Position numbers and translations under genes: made by a program. DNA of 64,000 nt. Source: Streptosporangium lutulentum. Its GTDB lineage: Bacteria > Actinomycetota > Actinomycetes > Streptosporangiales > Streptosporangiaceae. The stretch spans positions 6,138,001 through 6,202,000 of the forward strand of contig NZ_JAUSQU010000001.1 of assembly GCF_030811455.1 (NCBI RefSeq). The letters are read 5' to 3'. The notes under the pieces are model-generated. The model ran no database searches, was not told the origin of the DNA, and was given only the letters and a program-made list of their open reading frames with translations. Shown in pieces: positions 31,920 through 40,360 of the stretch; the stretch's first letter is position 1, and each line of letters begins with the position of its first letter.

Positions 31920-32123
31920 TCAATGTGGCGTCCGGTCCTCGTTCAGATCGTTGGAGCGGTCCCGCCGCACAGCGTCGAGGAATCCGGGAACCTCACTCAG
32001 TTCCCGGAGCTCGAGCTGGCACTCCTCGCACGCCATGAGGTGGCGCTCGAACACCTCGTGATCCTCTTCGTCGAGCACCCCGAGGGCGTATGCGGCCACA
32101 TCATGATGCGGGGAGGGGAACAT
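31920..32123 (-). CDS. Short soluble zinc-binding anti-sigma factor (ZAS domain)
   Basis: 67 residues forming only the anti-sigma domain. DVAAYALGVLDEEDHEVFERHL is the zf-HC2 helix pair, and HLMACEEC provides the HxxxCxxC zinc site at about residues 28-35; an N-terminal His (HHD) may be the fourth ligand. There is no transmembrane helix, unlike many anti-sigma proteins, so it is cytoplasmic, like RsrA-type redox sensors, in which oxidation of the cysteines releases sigma. Its ATG overlaps the sigma stop (TGATG), indicating translational coupling and 1:1 synthesis. Confidence 0.85.
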   Translation of the reverse strand: MFPSPHHDVAAYALGVLDEEDHEVFERHLMACEECQLELRELSEVPGFLDAVRRDRSNDLNEDRTPH

Positions 32124-32671
32124 CAGCTCGCAACACCTCTCTCCTTCAGGACCTTTCGGAGAGCCCGGATCCCGTAGTAGAGCCGGGACTTGACCGTGCC
32201 CGGCGGAATCCCAAGAATTTCCGCCGCTTCGTTAATCGTACGGTCCCGTAGGTAAGTGTGCTCGATGACTTCGCGGTGTTCTGGAGACAGTTCGCGCAAC
32301 GCATCGGCGACGATCATCGTCTCGATCGTCCGATCCGATCCGTCGGGCACGGGAACGGCGTTCGCGTCGGGCGGCTCGACCTCCTGCGGTCTCGCCCCTC
32401 GCTTGCGGCGGCCGTCGATGACGATACGGCGGGCGACGGTGAGGAGCCAGGCCCACAACAGACCAGGCTCCCGATGCAACCTCCCTGCGTTGCGCCAGGC
32501 GCGGACGAGCGTCTCCTGGACGACGTCCTCGGCCCATTGCAGATCATTGCCTGTGGCCTTGCGTACATGCCGGAGCAGAGGAGCACCGAACTCCCGGTAC
32601 AGACCTTCTACCAGGACGACATCGGTGTCCATGCTCTCGAACCGACTGTCGAGTTGACGACGCACGGGCAC
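32123..32671 (-). CDS. ECF-type RNA polymerase sigma factor
   Basis: 182 residues. Region 2 is LYREFGAPLLRHVRKATGNDLQWAEDVVQETLVRAWRN, and region 4 is ALRELSPEHREVIEHTYLRDRTINEAAEILGIPPGTVKSRLYYG. The ILGIPPGTVKSRLYYGIRALR recognition helix is typical of SigK/SigL-like ECF groups. GTG start at 32671 with GAAGG about 11 bases upstream; ATG 32632 is an alternative. It shares one base with its anti-sigma gene. Candidate sigma-70 promoter elements upstream are TTGCCA (32714-32709) and TGATAA (32692-32687) with a 16-base spacer. Confidence 0.93.
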   Translation of the reverse strand: MPVRRQLDSRFESMDTDVVLVEGLYREFGAPLLRHVRKATGNDLQWAEDVVQETLVRAWRNAGRLHREPGLLWAWLLTVARRIVIDGRRKRGARPQEVEPPDANAVPVPDGSDRTIETMIVADALRELSPEHREVIEHTYLRDRTINEAAEILGIPPGTVKSRLYYGIRALRKVLKERGVAS

Positions 32672-32748
32672 ATCTTTACACCTTCGTTATCAGTCACGTC
32701 TGCAACTCTGGCAACTCCAGTTATTTCTAACTATCTCATCACTTCCTA

Positions 32749-32773
32749 TGAACCTCCCTTGGTGACGCCGCGT
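32749..32773 (+). promoter_or_regulatory. ECF-sigma-type promoter candidate for the redox gene run
   Basis: TGAACC (32749-32754), a 16-base spacer, then CGT (32771-32773). This resembles the SigL-type consensus TGAACC-N16/18-CGT of actinobacteria and lies 50 bases before the first gene of the divergent operon. It suggests that the adjacent sigma factor drives these genes. Confidence 0.5.
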
Positions 32774-32824
32774 ACCTCCCACCAAGTGCGCCCGCACCGG
32801 CGGGTCCTCGGGGAAGGAAAGACC

Positions 32825-33037
32825 ATGGCAGTGCGGCACATCCCATGGCCGGTCGGAACCGTCCTCGCCCTCCCCCTCCTCGCCGCACTCGGCGAGGGTT
32901 CCACCGTAGGAGACGCTTACGCGGTTCCCACCACCACTCAGGACACGGAGGAAGGCGCAGGCCGGAGCGTCTGCGGCACGTGGTTCACGGACGGCGGGCC
33001 GCGGGCTGGGAAGCCTCCGGCCACGGATGGCCACTAG
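32825..33037 (+). CDS. Small secreted protein, unknown function
   Basis: 70 residues from ATG with AAGGAAAG about 5 bases upstream. A hydrophobic segment (PWPVGTVLALPLLAALG) followed by GDAYA forms a plausible signal peptide. The short mature part (TTTQDTEEGAGRSVCGTWF...) has a single cysteine. It overlaps the DUF4142 gene by 11 bases, so it seems to be the first cistron of the run. Its small size makes it uncertain; it could be a leader peptide for translational coupling rather than a functional product. Confidence 0.55.
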   Translation: MAVRHIPWPVGTVLALPLLAALGEGSTVGDAYAVPTTTQDTEEGAGRSVCGTWFTDGGPRAGKPPATDGH

Positions 33038-33731
33038 GCGACCGGGCCGGACCGTGTTCGGCAAACTACGCCGCCGCTTCGGGACCGGAGAGGCGCTGCT
33101 GTTCGGAATCTTCATCGCGATCGCCGCCGTGGCGGTCGTGGTGCTGACCCCGCCCGGCGGCTCCTCCTCCACCTCCGCCACCCCTCAGGGCTGGACCCAG
33201 ACGTCCCACGGGCCGCTGAGCCCAGCCGACCGCGACTTCCTCGCCAAGGTCCGCATGGCCGGTCTCTGGGAGATACCCACCGGCCAGCAGGCCCAGCAAA
33301 GAGCGGGGAACAAGCGGGTCAAGGAGGTCGGCATGCACCTGATGACCGACCACCTCAAGCTCGACGAGGAGGTCCGCGACGTCGCGGCCCGGCTGAACGT
33401 GGTGCTGCCCAGCCAGCCCAACGCCGACCAGCAGGGCTGGATGGCACAGCTGTCGAGCCTTTCCGGCTCCGAATACGACCGCACTTTCGCCCAACTGCTC
33501 AGGCAGGCCCACGGAAAGGTCTTCGGGGTGGTCGCCGGGATACGCGCCGGCACCCGTAACGACCTGATCCGACCCTTCGCCCAGCGGGCGGTGAACGTGG
33601 TCATGAAGCACATGGCCTTGCTGGAGAGCACCGGGCTGGTCGACTACTCGCTCCTGCCCGAGCCTCCGGCCCCGTCACCGCCGCCCGCCACGGCTGCTCT
33701 CGACACACCTGTGAGGAGAGAAATCTCTTGA
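33027..33731 (+). CDS. Membrane-anchored DUF4142 (ferritin-like helical) protein
   Basis: 234 residues. N-terminal anchor at about 22-42 (LLFGIFIAIAAVAVVVLTP). An external all-alpha DUF4142 domain begins LSPADRDFLAKVRMAGLWEIPTGQQAQQRAGNKRVKEVG and continues HLMTDHLKLDEEVRDVA. DUF4142 domains adopt a ferritin-like four-helix fold; no clear di-iron ExxH pairs are evident here, so metal binding is doubtful. A Pro/Ala tail ends the protein. The start is inside the previous gene's end and the stop overlaps the next TTG start (TTGA), indicating one operon. Confidence 0.82.
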   Translation: MATRRPGRTVFGKLRRRFGTGEALLFGIFIAIAAVAVVVLTPPGGSSSTSATPQGWTQTSHGPLSPADRDFLAKVRMAGLWEIPTGQQAQQRAGNKRVKEVGMHLMTDHLKLDEEVRDVAARLNVVLPSQPNADQQGWMAQLSSLSGSEYDRTFAQLLRQAHGKVFGVVAGIRAGTRNDLIRPFAQRAVNVVMKHMALLESTGLVDYSLLPEPPAPSPPPATAALDTPVRREIS

Positions 33732-35119
33732 AACGCGCGTTCGTCACCATGTCCGCGCTGGCACTGGCCGCCAGCACACTCACCGCCGTCACGATCACGG
33801 TGAGTACGGTCCCCGCCTTCGGTGATCACTGCGATCCCGCCGAGCAGGGCCAGAGCCAGGCCCAGAGGCAGCAGAACCAGGACCGGCAGGGCCAGGACCA
33901 ACAGGAGCAGGGCCGGCCGGATCAACCCGCGCAGGACGCTCCCGCGCAGGACCCCGCCGCGCAGGACCTTCCCCCCGCGGGAGGAGCGGTCAACCAGGCC
34001 TCACCCACCCGGGCGCCTTCCCCCGAGACCGGCGAGGCCCCCGAGACCTCTCCCACCCAGGCGCCCGAGGACGAGCCCGCCGACGAGTCGCTCTCCCGCC
34101 GCCGGCCCACCCAGACGCCCGGCCGTACGCCCACCCAGGCCCCTCCCTCCGCGTCCCCCACCCCCGCGCCCTCCGAGTCCCCCGCGCCCACGCCCTCCGA
34201 GCCCGCGCCCTCCGAGCCCCCCGCGCCCGACGAGGACGAGGAAGCGGCGGAGTGCGCCGACCTCGGCCCGTTCCCCGAGGACTTCATCGACATCAGGCAG
34301 GTCCAGCGGAACTTCCAGGAGGTCCGGACCCAGCGCCGGGGTTCCTCGGGCACCTTCACCTCCCGGTGCGGCCGGAACGAGAACCGCCACCACAACTCCG
34401 ACAACTTCATCGTGGCCCCGGGGGTGAGCAACGGCGCCCACCACGTGCACGACTACGTCGGCAACCTGTCCACCGACGGGTTCTCCACCGACCAGTCCCT
34501 GGCCGCGGCGGGAACCACGTGCGCGCTGGGCGACCGTTCGACCTACTTCTGGCCGGTCCTGCGCGACCGTACGAACGACACCAACGCCGACGACGCGGAC
34601 GGCAACGTCGGCAGCATCATGACCCCCCGCCAGGTGAGCCTGCAGTTCCGGGGGAACCCGGTGTCCAAGGTCACCGCGATGCCCAGGTTCATCCGGATCA
34701 TCACCGGTGACGCCAAGGCCGCCACGAACGGCGGCGCGAACGCCCTCGCCAAGTGGAGCTGCACGGGATTCGGCAACCGGGTGACCACCAAGTATCCGCT
34801 CTGCCCCCGCGGCAGCCGGCTCCTGCGGATCCTGGACTTCCCCAGTTGCTGGGACGGCCAGAACACCGACAGCGCCAACCACCGCACCCACGTGCTCTTC
34901 CCCGACGCGAACGGCGCCTGCCCCTCGGGCACCAGGGCGGTCCCGCAGCTCCGGATGACCCTGACCTACACCACTCCGCGTACGGCGTCCTTCGCGCTGG
35001 ACGCCTTCCCCGAGCAGCTCCACAACCCCGTCACCGACCACGGCGACTTCGCGAACGTGATGTCGAACCAGCTGATGCGGTTCGCGGTGGACTGCATCAA
35101 CCGGGGACGGCGCTGCTGA
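33728..35119 (+). CDS. Secreted DUF1996-domain protein with long Pro/Gln/Ser linker
   Basis: 463 residues. Signal peptide about 1-32 (ALALAASTLTAVTITV...AFGDHC). A low-complexity linker at about 35-175 is rich in Gln, then Pro/Ser/Thr/Ala. A C-terminal DUF1996 domain of about 280 residues holds the conserved GAHHVHDYVGN and FRCG-like SGTFTSRCGRNENRHHNSD, and several paired cysteines. In fungi and bacteria DUF1996 is a secreted domain of unknown biochemistry, His-rich and possibly metal-binding. The TTG start overlaps the previous stop, with AGGAGAG upstream. The linker would let the domain cross the wall. Followed by a strong hairpin, so transcription may pause or end here. Confidence 0.85.
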   Translation: MKRAFVTMSALALAASTLTAVTITVSTVPAFGDHCDPAEQGQSQAQRQQNQDRQGQDQQEQGRPDQPAQDAPAQDPAAQDLPPAGGAVNQASPTRAPSPETGEAPETSPTQAPEDEPADESLSRRRPTQTPGRTPTQAPPSASPTPAPSESPAPTPSEPAPSEPPAPDEDEEAAECADLGPFPEDFIDIRQVQRNFQEVRTQRRGSSGTFTSRCGRNENRHHNSDNFIVAPGVSNGAHHVHDYVGNLSTDGFSTDQSLAAAGTTCALGDRSTYFWPVLRDRTNDTNADDADGNVGSIMTPRQVSLQFRGNPVSKVTAMPRFIRIITGDAKAATNGGANALAKWSCTGFGNRVTTKYPLCPRGSRLLRILDFPSCWDGQNTDSANHRTHVLFPDANGACPSGTRAVPQLRMTLTYTTPRTASFALDAFPEQLHNPVTDHGDFANVMSNQLMRFAVDCINRGRRC

Positions 35120-35134
35120 TCCACCCTCAGGACG

Positions 35135-35192
35135 GCCGCTCCCCCGTCTCCGCCTCCTTCAACCCGAGTCCCGGCGGAGACGGGGGAGCGGC
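35135..35192 (+). terminator. Long hairpin between the DUF1996 gene and the haem-type membrane protein
   Basis: Perfect 20-bp stem beginning GCCGCTCCCCCG with an 18-base loop, 15 bases after the DUF1996 stop. It may end or attenuate the first transcript; no obvious promoter was recognised before the next gene at 35314. Confidence 0.75.
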
Positions 35193-35313
35193 ATTCCCCG
35201 GCCCACTGATCCGCTGGCCGGCAGCCCCGCGGCCCTGTGGAAACACGGCCCCCACCCGCAACACGCACACGTCATCGAGCCGATTCATGGAAATTTCCAG
35301 AAAGGAGGCGCTG

Positions 35314-36135
35314 GTGGGTAATCGACGGACTCCACGCCATACCCGATCAGAGGACGGAACGAGCCTTGATCGCAGGCCCGCTCGGATCGCCTTCGGCGCC
35401 GTGACCACGATTTCCGTGGTCGCCCTGCTCATGCTGGCGCGCACGCCGGCGGGCATGGACATGGCCGCGGCCGTCCGTGGAGTTCTCTCGTTCTTCGCGG
35501 GCGTGGCGGCCCTCGTCGCGCTGACCGTCACCGTGGCGCTCGGCCTGCTCTCCGCGGATCGTGTCGTCCTCCCCGCCCTGGGGAGGATCCGTACCCAGTT
35601 CGCCCACCGGGCCGCCGCGCTGGTGGGCATGGGCTTCCTGGCCACCCACGTGCTCATGAAGATCGTGGAGGGCAGGGTCTCCCCGGCCTCCGCCGTGGTC
35701 CCGACGGCGACCGCGGGACCGGGCCTCTACGTCGGCTTCGGCGCGATCGCCTCCGACCTGATGATCCTGGTCTTCGCGACCGGGATCGCCCGGGCGAGCT
35801 TCGCGGAGAACCGCAGGCCGTGGCTCTGGAGGTTCCTGCACGGCTCCGCCTACCTGGCGTGGCCGGCCGCGATCCTGCACGGGCTCACCGCGGGCCGCCA
35901 GCCCGCCGAATGGGTGACCTGGAGTTACGTGGTCTGCCTGACCGCCGTGGGCGCCGCCCTGCTGATCAGGATGATCTCCGCCCTCCAGCCCAGGCAGGTC
36001 GTCGTCCGCATCGAGGCGCCGGTGGAACAGCCCGTCGCCGCGGACGTGACCCCGCCCCTCAGCATCGTCGGCCGCGTCCCACGCCGGGAGCGCGAGGAAC
36101 AGCCCGAGCTTCACCGGATCGGAGGTGTCGGATGA
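35314..36135 (+). CDS. Ferric-reductase-like transmembrane cytochrome domain protein
   Basis: 273 residues with about six membrane helices (ARIAFGAVTTISVVALLMLA, GVLSFFAGVAALVALTVTVA, AALVGMGFLATHVLMKIV and others). Histidines fit haem ligands: FAHRAAALVGMGFLATHV gives a His-x13-His pair, and FLHGSAYLAWPAAILHGL a second such pair, as in ferric reductase / YedZ / cytochrome b561-like proteins. GTG with AGGAGG 5 bases upstream is the best start; ATG 35287 lacks a site. The stop overlaps the next ATG (ATGA), so it is coupled to the NuoF-ferredoxin gene. I infer it passes electrons across the membrane. Confidence 0.82.
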   Translation: MGNRRTPRHTRSEDGTSLDRRPARIAFGAVTTISVVALLMLARTPAGMDMAAAVRGVLSFFAGVAALVALTVTVALGLLSADRVVLPALGRIRTQFAHRAAALVGMGFLATHVLMKIVEGRVSPASAVVPTATAGPGLYVGFGAIASDLMILVFATGIARASFAENRRPWLWRFLHGSAYLAWPAAILHGLTAGRQPAEWVTWSYVVCLTAVGAALLIRMISALQPRQVVVRIEAPVEQPVAADVTPPLSIVGRVPRREREEQPELHRIGGVG

Positions 36136-37586
36136 TCCCCTATCGAGTCCCCCCTGTGCGGCAACTCGGCCCGGCCCGGCTGACCGCCGGGCTTGAGGAC
36201 CGCCGCAGGATGGACCTCGCCGCCCACCGGGCCATGCACGGCACGGCGGCGAGCATGAGCGCGGAGGAACTCGCGGCGCTGGCCGACGAGGTCGACCTCC
36301 GCGGACGGGGAGGCGCCGCGTTCCCCTTCGCCCGCAAGCTCCGCGCCGTGATGGACAAGCGCTCGGAGAAGGTCGTCCTCGTCAACGCCGCCGAGGGCGA
36401 ACCGGCGAGCAGCAAGGACACGATGCTGCTCACCCGGACCCCCCACCTGGTGATCGAGGGCGCGTTGCTCGCGGCGGGCGCGATCAACGCCAAGCGGATC
36501 GTGATCGCGGCCGTCAAGGGCGGGATGGGCGAGTCCTCGATCGCCGCCGCGGTCGAGGAGCGGGGCGTCGGCGACCGGGTCCGCGTCGTCGGCATCGTCG
36601 AACGGTTCATCTCCGGCGAGGGCGGCGCACTGGTCCGTTCGGTGAACGGCCTGGTGGGCGAGCCCCCGGGCCGCAAGGTCAGGGCCGTCGAGAGCGGGGT
36701 GAGCGGGCTGCCCACCCTGCTGTCCAACGCCGAGACCTTCGCCCAGCTCGCCGTCCTCGCCACCCTGGGCTCCGAGCGCTACGCCGACGTCGGCACGGCT
36801 CGCGAGCCCGGGACGGTCCTGCTCACCGTGGGAGGGTCCGCCAAGGCCCCGGCCGTGGTGGAGGTCGCGACCGGCACGCCGCTGTACGCCGTGCTGGACG
36901 CCTGCCAGGCCTCACTCGGCGAGGGCGTGCTGCTCGGCGGGTATCACGGTGGATGGCTCCACCCGGACGCCGCCGTCGTGGCGACCGTCTCCCGGCAGGG
37001 CATCACCGACGCGGGCGGGCAGCTCGGGGCCGGCATCATCGTGCCGCTCGGTGCGGAGACCTGCCCGCTGGGTGAGACGGCAAGGGTCGCGAAGTACCTG
37101 GCCGAGCAGTCGTCGGGACAGTGCGGGCCGTGCCGGCTCGGGCTCCCGGACGTCGCCCGGTCGATGGCCGAGATCGTGAACGGCTCGGCCGCGGCCCTGG
37201 ACGAGCTGCGCCACAGGGCCGCGGGGGTCAAGGGAAGGGGTGCGTGCTTCCACCCCGACGGGACGTCCCGGTTCGTGCTGTCGGCGCTGGGCGCCTTCCC
37301 CGACGACATCGAGGAGCACATCCTCAACGGCACGTGCGGCCGCCCGGTCCAGGGCATGCTCCCCCTGCCTCCGCAGGAGAACGATCCCGAGGTCCGGCTG
37401 ACCGTGGACTGGACCCGGTGCCAGGGCCACGGGCTGTGCGCCAAGCTCGCCCCCGACCTCATCCATCTCGACGAGCACGGTTACCCGGTGCTCAGCCGCG
37501 AGGCCGTCCCCAACCAGTTCCGCCGGATGGCTCGCAGGACCGTCGAGATGTGCCCCGCCCTGGCCCTGCGAGTCGCCACCGGGTGA
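36132..37586 (+). CDS. NuoF-like NADH/FMN/Fe-S oxidoreductase fused to a ferredoxin
   Basis: 484 residues. About 1-410 is a NuoF-type module: GRGGAAFPFARKL for FMN, NAAEGEPASSKDT for NADH, and the 4Fe-4S site SSGQCGPCRLGL with a later cysteine (GRGACF). About 415-484 is a ferredoxin of the C-x5-C...CP type (RCQGHGLCAKLAP, EMCPALAL), as used with P450s and other single-cluster ferredoxins. Complex I subunits NuoE and NuoG are not adjacent, so this is a stand-alone electron-input protein. It is translationally coupled to the membrane cytochrome gene upstream (4-base overlap, GGAGG 6 bases before ATG). The likely route is NAD(P)H to FMN to Fe-S to haem. Confidence 0.86.
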   Translation: MIPYRVPPVRQLGPARLTAGLEDRRRMDLAAHRAMHGTAASMSAEELAALADEVDLRGRGGAAFPFARKLRAVMDKRSEKVVLVNAAEGEPASSKDTMLLTRTPHLVIEGALLAAGAINAKRIVIAAVKGGMGESSIAAAVEERGVGDRVRVVGIVERFISGEGGALVRSVNGLVGEPPGRKVRAVESGVSGLPTLLSNAETFAQLAVLATLGSERYADVGTAREPGTVLLTVGGSAKAPAVVEVATGTPLYAVLDACQASLGEGVLLGGYHGGWLHPDAAVVATVSRQGITDAGGQLGAGIIVPLGAETCPLGETARVAKYLAEQSSGQCGPCRLGLPDVARSMAEIVNGSAAALDELRHRAAGVKGRGACFHPDGTSRFVLSALGAFPDDIEEHILNGTCGRPVQGMLPLPPQENDPEVRLTVDWTRCQGHGLCAKLAPDLIHLDEHGYPVLSREAVPNQFRRMARRTVEMCPALALRVATG

Positions 37587-37864
37587 TCTCCGGCCACGAT
37601 CGGTCGAGCCGGCCGGTGGGTCTCGACGGGTCGTCTCCACGAAGGGGTGATCTCCGCCCGGAGGCGCCATGGACCGTCGGCCGGGTTCCCGGCACGCGTG
37701 AGCCCGAAGGACCTCCACCCCGAAGGCACCGCGGACCGGCGGCCGGGTTCTCGGCGGGTGCGGGCTCGGAGATCCGTTCCCTGACGTGACGCGAATGTGA
37801 CCAACCGAAGTGGCCTGCCGGCCGTCTCAACGGGCAGCGACACCTGACTCTCGGGGAGAAAAAT
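37587..37864. other. Gap before the FAD oxidase, with an imperfect direct repeat
   Basis: No gene. About 37663-37710 and 37724-37770 are imperfect copies of the pattern GGCsCCrygGACCGkCGGCCGGGTT. It is followed by an AT-containing region directly before the oxidase start, with GGGAG as the ribosome site. Confidence 0.5.
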
Positions 37865-39316
37865 ATGCGGGCCGTTCCGGACAGGCGCACGTTCCTCAGA
37901 ATCGGAGGCATGACCGCCATGAGCCTGGGTGCCACGGCCTCCCCCGGCGCGCCCGACTGGAACGCGCTGGGACGAGGGCTGGACGGCAAGCTCATCCGTC
38001 CTGGCGACGCCGCCTACGACAGCGCCCGCCGGCTGTTCAACCCCGCCTTCGACGGCGTGCGCCCCGCGGGCGTGGCCTACTGCGCCAACCCCTCCGACGT
38101 GGCCGAGTGCGTGAACTTCGCCCGCCGGATGAACGTGCCGCTGGCCGTACGCTCCGGCGGGCACTCCTACGCGGGCTGGTCCACCGGGACCGGCCTGGTC
38201 GTCGACGTCTCCCGGATGGCCGCGGTGAGCCACGCGTCCGGCCGGGCGACCGTCGGGGCCGGGGCCAAGCTCATCGACGTCTACGACAAGCTGGCTTCCA
38301 AAGGGGTCAGCATCCCCGCCGGGACCTGCGCCACGGTCGGGGTGAGCGGGCTGGCGCTGGGCGGCGGGATCGGCGTGGTGTCCAGGAAGTACGGTCTGAC
38401 CTGTGACGTGCTGGAGTCGGTCCAGCTGGTCACGGCCGACGGCCGGCTGCTGACCTGCGACGCCGATCACAATCCCGATCTGTACTGGGCCTCGCGCGGC
38501 GGCGGCGGGGGCAACCTCGGGGTGGCGGTCTCCTTCGGCTTCCGGACCCACCCCACGCGGGAGGTCACCACCTTCTTCCTGCACTGGCCGTGGGCGAAGG
38601 CCGCCAAGGCCCTGCGAGCCTGGCAGGCATGGGCGCCCACCGCCCCGGACGCGATGTGGTCCGGCCTGCACCTGAGCCGTGAGAACGGGCTGGACGTGGA
38701 GGTCGTCGGGCTCTACCTCGGTGGCAAGGCCGCCTGCGAGCGACTGCTCGACCGGCTGACGGACAAGATCGGCGCGACCTCTTCCTCCTCCGTCCGGCAG
38801 ACCTCCTACCGCCACGCGATGATGGTCATGGCGGGCTGCGCCACGCTCTCGGTCGCCCAGTGCCACCAGCCCGGATCCCTGCCGGGACAGGCCCGCGGCG
38901 GCAAACTGTCCAGGGACGACTCGCGGGCCACGTCGCACATGGCCTACCGCCCGCTGTCCGAGGCCGGCGCCAAGGCCCTCGTCGCCGAGGTCGCCCGGCC
39001 CGGCAGCCACACCGTGCTGCTGGACGCCCTGGGCGGCGCCGTCGGACGGGTCCGCCCGGAGGCCACGGCCTTCCCGCACCGGGCCGCCCTCTACAGCGTG
39101 CAGTACTACGCCCATCGCGCCGGAGCCGCCACCTGGGCCAGGAAAGCTCACGACGCGATGCGCCCCCACTTCGGCGACCACGCCTACGTGAACTACATCG
39201 ACCCGGGGCTCAGCGGCTGGCGCACCGCCTACTACGGCGCGAACGCCGCCCGGCTCTCCCAGATCAAGGCCGCCCGCGACCCCGGCCGCCTCTTCCGCCT
39301 CCCCCAGGGAATCTGA
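37865..39316 (+). CDS. Tat-type bicovalent FAD-binding oxidoreductase (berberine-bridge-enzyme family)
   Basis: 483 residues. DRRTFLRIGG near the N-terminus is a twin-arginine export signal. The PCMH FAD domain has RSGGHSYAGWS, whose His is the usual 8-alpha attachment, and CATVGVSGLALGGGIG, whose Cys is the second covalent FAD link. The C-terminal BBE motif is YVNYIDP. Such enzymes oxidise alcohols, sugars or amines with O2 or another acceptor outside the membrane. It follows the electron-transfer genes with a 278-base gap, so it may be a separate unit that uses or feeds that system; this is inference. Confidence 0.88.
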   Translation: MRAVPDRRTFLRIGGMTAMSLGATASPGAPDWNALGRGLDGKLIRPGDAAYDSARRLFNPAFDGVRPAGVAYCANPSDVAECVNFARRMNVPLAVRSGGHSYAGWSTGTGLVVDVSRMAAVSHASGRATVGAGAKLIDVYDKLASKGVSIPAGTCATVGVSGLALGGGIGVVSRKYGLTCDVLESVQLVTADGRLLTCDADHNPDLYWASRGGGGGNLGVAVSFGFRTHPTREVTTFFLHWPWAKAAKALRAWQAWAPTAPDAMWSGLHLSRENGLDVEVVGLYLGGKAACERLLDRLTDKIGATSSSSVRQTSYRHAMMVMAGCATLSVAQCHQPGSLPGQARGGKLSRDDSRATSHMAYRPLSEAGAKALVAEVARPGSHTVLLDALGGAVGRVRPEATAFPHRAALYSVQYYAHRAGAATWARKAHDAMRPHFGDHAYVNYIDPGLSGWRTAYYGANAARLSQIKAARDPGRLFRLPQGI

Positions 39317-39653
39317 TTCCTGTGTTGCGGCCCCCCATAGGGGTGATCAGTACAGCAGCTGTAGCGAAGTGCCGGTCGAAACAGGGCACCGAACCGTTCG
39401 GGGCAGCCCTGCGACTGCGCGATCAAATCGGCGTCGGTGATCTCTGACGGCGCCGGGCCCAGAGTGGGAGCTACCTGGGGGAGCTGACATCGAGACTGGC
39501 CCTTCGGCGACTTGGCGTGGACGGGGGTAGTTCGCCGAAGCCCCGATCAGTATTCACGCCACCCGCCCAGTGCTCCTGAGCAACAGGACATCAGTCACCA
39601 CATGGTTTCCGTTACAGCCTTCGATTAATATAAGGATTCGTTATACCGGCAGT
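39317..39653. other. Gap before the higBA module
   Basis: 337 bases with no supported gene. The last 60 bases are AT-rich (CGATTAATATAAGGATTCG) and contain the toxin promoter, with TTATAC at 39641-39646 as a -10. The earlier part is featureless. Confidence 0.55.
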
Positions 39654-40028
39654 ATGAGCTGGGAGATCACGCTGCACACCGAAGTGAACGCCTGGTTTCT
39701 CGACATCTGCAAGAACGACCCGATCACTGCGGAGAAGATCGCAGAAGCCCTGGACGAGCTCGCGCTTCAGGGTCCGGAACTCGGCCGCCCGCTGGTCGAT
39801 CGAATCCACCACTCCCGCGTCCTGCACGACCTCAAAGAGCTACGCCCCCGAGTGCCCGGCGAAGCGGAGATCCGCCTGTTGTTCGTCTTCGATCCCACTC
39901 GAGAGGCAATCGTGCTGGTCGCCGGCGACAAGGCCGGAGGATGGAACCGGTGGTACCGCACGGCGATTCCCCTGGCGGAGGAACGTTATGCCGCATACCG
40001 CGCCGAGAAGCAGAAGGAGGAACGCTGA
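39654..40028 (+). CDS. higB: HigB-type toxin (RelE/ParE superfamily, Gp49-like)
   Basis: 124 residues: MSWEITLHTEVNAWFLDI, the helix AEKIAEALDELALQGPELGRPLVDRI, then HDLKELRPRVPGEAEIRLLFVFDP, the central sheet with RPR...RLLF typical of Gp49-like RelE toxins that cut mRNA on the ribosome. The -10 element TTATAC ends seven bases before the ATG, so the message is probably leaderless. It is the first gene of a toxin-first pair and overlaps the antitoxin by one base (TGATG). Lower G+C in the promoter suggests acquisition by transfer. Confidence 0.85.
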   Translation: MSWEITLHTEVNAWFLDICKNDPITAEKIAEALDELALQGPELGRPLVDRIHHSRVLHDLKELRPRVPGEAEIRLLFVFDPTREAIVLVAGDKAGGWNRWYRTAIPLAEERYAAYRAEKQKEER

Positions 40029-40360
40029 TGAGCGAGTTCGTGAAGTGGACCAGCACTAAGGCCAAAATCCGCGAGATCGACCCTGACTGGGACTCCCCCG
40101 AGCGGGTCGCTGTCCGTGAGGCCAGCCGTGAGCAACTTCGGGCAGAGCTGCGCGGCGCTCAGCTCGCCGAGGCACGCAAGCGCCTGGGCATCACCCAGAA
40201 GCTCCTCGCCGAACGCATGGGCGTCACCCAGGCACGCGTGTCTCAGATCGAACACGGCCAGATCGGCGGCCTGGACACCCTACGCTCCTACGTTGTCGCC
40301 TTGGGCGGGACACTGGACGTGGTGGCCGACTTCGGAGACCACTCCGTGAAAGTCGCCTGA
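40028..40360 (+). CDS. higA: HigA-type antitoxin (Xre helix-turn-helix)
   Basis: 110 residues. A helix rich in charged residues (EREQLRAEL-like, ASREQLRAELRGAQLAEARK) leads to the HTH at about 55-90 (LGITQKLLAERMGVTQARVSQIEHGQ). A short C-terminal beta-part (GTLDVVADFGDHSVKVA) matches HigA/Xre antitoxins of Gp49-linked toxins. It neutralises HigB and represses the pair. Coupled to the toxin by a one-base overlap. Confidence 0.87.
   Translation: MSEFVKWTSTKAKIREIDPDWDSPERVAVREASREQLRAELRGAQLAEARKRLGITQKLLAERMGVTQARVSQIEHGQIGGLDTLRSYVVALGGTLDVVADFGDHSVKVA

Follow-up and report, generated by a model that had tools for sequence, protein, structure and literature searches.

A conserved set of putative envelope redox genes beside a SigL-like sigma factor and a one-domain soluble zinc anti-sigma factor in Streptosporangiaceae

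Introduction

Ferric reductases and NADPH oxidases hold two haems b by two pairs of histidines on membrane helices, and ApbE attaches FMN to exported proteins. Zinc anti-sigma factors include the membrane-associated RslA, partner of SigL in Mycobacterium tuberculosis, and the small soluble RsrA of the SigR/RsrA pair of Streptomyces coelicolor, whose trigger disulfide uses a distal cysteine, Cys11. In RslA zinc is held by His25, His50, Cys54 and Cys57, and oxidation produces a disulfide inside the CxxC motif with loss of the metal; this loss lowers affinity only about 8-fold, and changes to the dipeptide within CxxC slow zinc release (PMC2877774). SigL prefers G at position -11, a base read by its Asp60 (PMC6372665). 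Among the envelope proteins that concern us here, fungal DUF1996 proteins affect stress and metal-ion responses (PMC4738358).

Here we describe a locus in the 10.6-Mb genome of the soil bacterium Streptosporangium lutulentum, analyzed within a window of 64,000 nucleotides. The parts are of known kinds; the literature searched contained no description of the combination of genes, of the one-domain anti-sigma factor or of the regulon, but its journal coverage was incomplete, so prior mention is possible.

Results

The genes, overlaps and hairpin of a preliminary description of this DNA, made from the letters alone, were recovered exactly by reading frames and a sequence check (Table 1). Anti-sigma and sigma genes overlap by 1 base, a 70-codon frame and the DUF4142 gene by 11 bases, DUF4142 and DUF1996 by TTGA, and the genes for the ferric-reductase-like protein (FRD) and the NuoF-ferredoxin fusion (NuoF-Fd) by ATGA. 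Pfam searches confirmed zf-HC2, Sigma70_r2/r4, DUF4142 and DUF1996, together with Complex1_51K, NADH_4Fe-4S and Fer4_15 in NuoF-Fd and FAD_binding_4 and BBE in the FAD oxidase. Among named relatives, Streptosporangium subroseum is the nearest at this locus, with 97% identity in NuoF-Fd. A simple GC-bias caller supplied the gene models of the flanks; some of its distant models were wrong, and homology positions were taken in place of the models. Further downstream, at 39570-40360, a frame for a RelE/HigB-like toxin can be read, with a frame for an Xre-type antitoxin after it.

Table 1. Features of the locus (positions within the window)
Feature	Position	Strand	Basis
Minimal soluble zinc anti-sigma factor, 67 aa, H..HxxxCxxC	31920-32123	-	zf-HC2
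SigL-like ECF sigma factor	32123-32671	-	PDB match to SigL
Conserved AT-rich element, divergent intergenic region	32702-32745	.	~40 loci
ECF promoter TGAACC-N16-CGTACCTC	32749-32778	+	40/41 related loci
Lipoprotein gene remnant, SCO0930-like (Lipoprotein_15), 70-codon frame	32825-33037	+	alignment to intact protein
DUF4142 protein, one N-terminal TM anchor	33027-33731	+	PF13628
DUF1996 secreted protein, start codon TTG at 33728	33728-35119	+	PF09362
Perfect 20-bp hairpin in the DUF1996-FRD gap	35135-35192	+	inverted repeat
FRD, ferric-reductase-like membrane protein	35314-36135	+	conserved His, sub-threshold PF01794
NuoF-Fd, NuoF-like FMN/Fe-S protein fused to ferredoxin domain	36132-37586	+	PF01512, PF10589, PF13459
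FAD oxidase, BBE type, twin-arginine signal, loosely associated	37865-39316	+	PF01565, PF08031

A search with NuoF-Fd retrieved 80 loci, 39 of which carry sigma, anti-sigma, DUF4142, DUF1996, FRD and NuoF-Fd together. The sigma/anti-sigma pair diverges from the operon in 41 of the 80, all from Streptosporangiaceae genera (Streptosporangium, Planobispora, Planomonospora, Acrocarpospora, Herbidospora, Planotetraspora, Microbispora, Nonomuraea, Thermocatellispora, Thermoactinospora and others). Within this family the locus sits at a single chromosomal place, flanked again and again by the same pair of large genes; the 39 loci are therefore not independent, and much of the conservation is vertical inheritance. 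Independent support for the linkage, again read from gene order, comes from rearranged loci: FRD-NuoF-sigma-DUF4142-DUF1996 in Dactylosporangium (L078), FRD-NuoF-DUF4142-DUF1996 in Actinomadura (L101), anti-sigma, sigma, FRD, NuoF, DUF4142 and DUF1996 in a MAG (L098), and a further genome (G061/L197) with the DUF4142-DUF1996 set on one strand and FRD and NuoF on the opposite one. The expectation of the preliminary description that the neighborhood would extend beyond close relatives was thus borne out by the 39 loci and the rearranged forms. FRD adjoins NuoF-Fd in nearly all loci, overlapping or closely spaced in most, and the two also occur without the other members of the set, commonly in Actinomadura, Micromonospora, Streptomyces and others.

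Between DUF1996 and FRD lies a gap of 194 nt with a perfect 20-bp inverted repeat (35135-35154 / 35173-35192) that has no T-run. The preliminary description took this hairpin to separate two halves of the locus; it is present as described, but 35 related loci have a spacing of just 37-126 nt with repeats of at most 14 bp, and the closest relative (L025) has a 13-bp version, so the hairpin is a local feature of the window and its closest relatives, its long form being confined to the window. The long gap with its strong hairpin, the fixed chromosomal place in the family and the occurrence of FRD-NuoF-Fd alone in many Actinobacteria would all fit a locus in which the sigma factor acts on envelope proteins such as DUF4142 and DUF1996 only, FRD and NuoF-Fd being separately controlled neighbors inherited vertically. 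We regard this arrangement as unlikely, because most relatives have a gap of about 40-100 nt without a long hairpin and the linkage outlasts rearrangement.

Two further genes had been counted as parts of the system. The FAD oxidase has an RRTFL twin-arginine motif and a conserved Cys155, but it lies directly 3' of NuoF-Fd in only about 26 of the 80 loci, roughly a third; a place for it in the core is not supported. The 70-codon frame, previously read as a small secreted peptide, aligns at both ends with an intact 172-aa SCO0930-like lipoprotein of Planomonospora (L030) and has lost the middle; in another genome (G005/L198) it has decayed further. A functional secreted peptide was rejected, as the frame is the remnant of an internally deleted lipoprotein gene.

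The best PDB match of the sigma factor is M. tuberculosis SigL (6dv9_F, E 4e-31), against E 2e-11 for SigK, the best non-SigL chain. Its score with NCBIfam PRK09645 is 194.6 bits, under the cut-off of 202, and we therefore call it SigL-like and do not file it as SigL. The anti-sigma factor (zf-HC2, E 9e-7) has RslA as its best PDB match (3hug_B, E 8e-7), and its only cysteines are Cys32 and Cys35 of the CxxC motif, here CEEC. The anti-sigma factor has HxxxCxxC in all loci, and nearly all also show an upstream histidine where their N-termini align. The preliminary description was right that this protein is soluble, with HxxxCxxC and no membrane anchor: it has about 55-75 aa and no TM segment in 41/41 family loci, and the outgroup protein of L098 is longer and contains a hydrophobic stretch.

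Its label of "RsrA-like" did not hold. Small size, solubility and HxxxCxxC are shared with RsrA, but the distal cysteine that RsrA needs for its trigger disulfide is absent and the score of 14.6 bits with the RsrA equivalog model TIGR03988 lies far below its cut-off of 62.5; an RsrA-type switch was rejected on these grounds. The two histidines and CxxC are the same kind of zinc set as in RslA, with no further cysteine, which makes the protein RslA-like. Further likeness to SigL/RslA lies in the best sequence matches of both proteins and in envelope-directed targets; the differences are that the target genes are not the same and that the anti-sigma factor here corresponds to the cytoplasmic domain only, without the membrane part of RslA. 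By analogy with RslA, oxidative release of the sigma factor would be reasonable, but the modest affinity loss of RslA without zinc and the slower zinc release when its CxxC dipeptide is changed weigh against it, the sequence here being CEEC.

The DUF4142 operon is preceded by TGAACC, 16-17 variable bases and CGTAC/TC, both in the window and in all but one of 41 relatives (40 of 41); the remaining locus (L048) was mis-anchored and left unread. The preliminary description had allowed for promoters unrelated to the sigma factor as an outcome against its reading; what stands before the operon is a sigma-type promoter. Across 121 Streptosporangiaceae genomes, TGAACC-N16-CGTAYCTC is present in 31/31 with this sigma factor (a match at E ~1e-61 or better) and in 9/90 without it (Fisher p 4e-21), and when sites at the sigma locus are omitted it is still present in 28/31 (60 sites) against 9/90 (p 2e-16), both p-values ignoring the relatedness of the genomes. 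In a few of those nine other genomes, a copy of the sigma gene that is more distant lies close to a site. Outside the family the motif gave 4 matches in 137 genomes, and the reversed-motif control was near zero. As in SigL promoters, the -10 has CG and then T (PMC6372665), but it carries A at -11 where SigL prefers G, and SigL Asp60 aligns with Arg67 here, a pairing of residue and base change that is suggestive only.

Sites away from the locus precede recurrent genes, namely those for a secreted TIGR03118 protein (22), a small lipoprotein without a Pfam or NCBIfam match (17) and DUF305 lipoproteins (7); the products are mostly secreted proteins or lipoproteins. In its own genome the window's motif has five sites, 5' of the DUF4142 operon and of genes for a TIGR03118 protein, a PepSY_TM protein, a DUF6907-like protein and the small lipoprotein. 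Taken as comparative genomics, these data support a small sigma regulon transcribed from such promoters. The distance from the start of the motif to the start codon is 34-36 bases at most of the lipoprotein sites and in the DUF4142 operons of Nonomuraea (L157, L133, L134, L145, L148 and others). This places the start codon about where transcription should begin, which suggests messages that look leaderless. Three other sites (L168, L182, L183) precede frames that look aminotransferase-like (...PVDFCIPCNPYFPTPE...) and may be an extra branch of the regulon in some genera.

The AT-rich element beside the promoter (AACTCC-AGTYATTTCTRACTAT) has an imperfect inverted repeat and is conserved in about 40 loci. 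Of 67 motif sites only 9 have it, as would be expected if it were confined to sigma loci, and it is probably an operator or a piece of the promoter that serves the sigma gene. Autoregulation through the TGAACC motif found no backing in the window, where TGAACC-N13-19-CGT is absent from the other strand 5' of the sigma gene. Among the TGAAC/GGAAC occurrences listed, none in front of FRD or of the FAD oxidase was recognizable by eye as a further ECF promoter.

In FRD, His98, His112, His176 and His189 are kept in 77-78 of 79 sequences and form two pairs on hydrophobic helices, predicted from their placement to be ligands for two haems b. This recalls the haem domains of MsrQ, ferric reductases and NOX proteins, although FRD scores 20 bits with Ferric_reduct (PF01794), under the gathering score of 28, and its electrons would come from the separate NuoF-Fd. 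The Ferric_reduct-like protein, along with the PepSY_TM target, could also speak for a surface ferric or siderophore reductase serving iron uptake. We hold this to be quite improbable, as FRD has no cytoplasmic flavin/NAD domain of the classical ferric reductases and no siderophore or iron transport genes were recognized at the locus or at recurrent regulon sites.

NuoF-Fd, the proposed electron source for FRD, has FMN (PF01512) and NADH_4Fe-4S (PF10589) domains above cut-off and so shares the FMN and N3-type cluster domains of complex I NuoF and HydB, but with the NuoF equivalog TIGR01959 it scores 172.8 bits, under the cut-off of 558.65. Cys331, Cys334 and Cys372, with Cys430, Cys436 and Cys474 of the ferredoxin, are kept in 77/81 sequences. 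Unlike NuoF/HydB, the protein is fused to a ferredoxin and has no adjacent NuoE; two changes also recur in the family, Ser in place of the first cluster cysteine (QSSGQCGPCR against ESCGKCPPCR in solved HydB relatives) and GEGG where those relatives have GEET, a motif that touches the nucleotide site in complex I. With these two changes, NADH oxidation by NuoF-Fd is not assured, and the NADH donor of the preliminary description becomes uncertain. A literature search on the NADPH selectivity of NuoF found nothing.

Distant Actinobacteria have homologous FRD and NuoF in clusters where the ferredoxin is unfused and ApbE is adjacent; here the neighbors are DUF4142 and DUF1996. The presence of ApbE beside these relatives supports outward electron delivery as the job of the module. 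Neither ApbE nor FMN_bind was found in the window's own genome, which rules out an acceptor of that kind there, and the acceptor must therefore be something else.

The candidates are the DUF4142 and DUF1996 proteins. The former (PF13628, E 8e-24, 85 bits against a gathering score of 27; TM 23-41) has a domain predicted with good confidence (pLDDT 84) to fold as a ferritin-like bundle of four helices. The structures closest to this model are DUF305 3bt5 (Z 15.6, 143 residues, 2.5 Å) and the copper-binding CopM (Z 14.8), but many ferritin-like chains reach Z ~13 and above, so nothing beyond the fold class is secure, and the resemblance in the model would be one of fold only; with DUF305 (PF03713) the sequence scores 13.7 bits, under 27, and a PDB sequence search gave chance-level matches and no convincing relative. 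The DUF1996 protein (PF09362, E 2e-24, 87 bits against 27) consists of a low-complexity linker and a Cys/His-rich domain with invariant His and Cys; its model has a mean pLDDT of 63 and no convincing PDB structure match, and its profile found no PDB sequence match. Three more DUF1996 genes lie in the same genome (contig C1, at 12575, 1788769 and 3892275), none at a sigma-motif site. With these two candidates, a metal-containing outside acceptor is our best guess.

Metal binding by such bundles could instead be the purpose of the system, an envelope copper or silver response in which DUF305 and DUF4142 bundles bind metal, FRD and NuoF-Fd set its redox state and metal displaces the zinc of the anti-sigma factor. 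DUF305 targets with a weak CopM match, the closeness of the DUF4142 model to DUF305/CopM folds and the PepSY_TM target in the own genome agree with it. The CopM model scores 35 bits against a cut-off of 90, however, a common four-helix fold shows no function, and no copper exporter or chaperone gene was recognized among motif sites, and we consider such a response improbable.

Discussion

The gene set, its conserved ligands, the promoter and the regulon are supported by comparison of related genomes. We propose that a minimal soluble zinc anti-sigma factor holds an ECF sigma factor of the SigL kind, as homology and layout would have it, and that the zinc center is lost, most likely through oxidation of CxxC as in RslA, freeing the sigma factor. 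The freed sigma factor would transcribe the small regulon defined by comparative genomics, with the DUF4142-to-NuoF-Fd operon as its main target. NuoF-Fd may then draw electrons from a cytoplasmic donor, either a reduced nicotinamide or ferredoxin, and pass them through FMN and Fe-S to the two-haem FRD, which, judging from its conserved ligands, its gene coupling and its ApbE-associated relatives, would hand them outward, possibly to the DUF4142 or DUF1996 protein. It is the haem, the direction of the electrons, the oxidative release and the acceptor that we infer.

Taken together, we lean, with modest confidence, towards a redox or zinc switch of the SigL/RslA type, with a minimal soluble anti-sigma factor, that drives transmembrane electron export to envelope acceptors. 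A more specific version is tentative and on the doubtful side: a regulated, so far undescribed chain of filamentous actinobacteria from cytoplasmic NuoF-ferredoxin through a two-haem FRD to metalloproteins of the wall, the ferritin-like DUF4142 protein and the DUF1996 protein, which would replace the covalent-flavin acceptors made by ApbE, under a soluble one-domain zinc anti-sigma factor evolved from a membrane-bound one. Of the preliminary interpretation as a whole, the conserved envelope redox set beside an ECF/ZAS pair, the conserved haem ligands and the sigma-type promoter stand, and the RsrA-like switch, the peptide, the FAD oxidase as a core member and the assured role of NADH do not find support.

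DUF4142, DUF1996, DUF305, TIGR03118 and the unmatched lipoprotein family have little or no settled biochemistry, and their grouping in a single candidate sigma regulon, whose promoter is defined and for which an electron source is plausible, would offer a direct route to testing their roles. The natural one-domain anti-sigma factor, beside a longer membrane form, is also material for the study of zinc redox switches.
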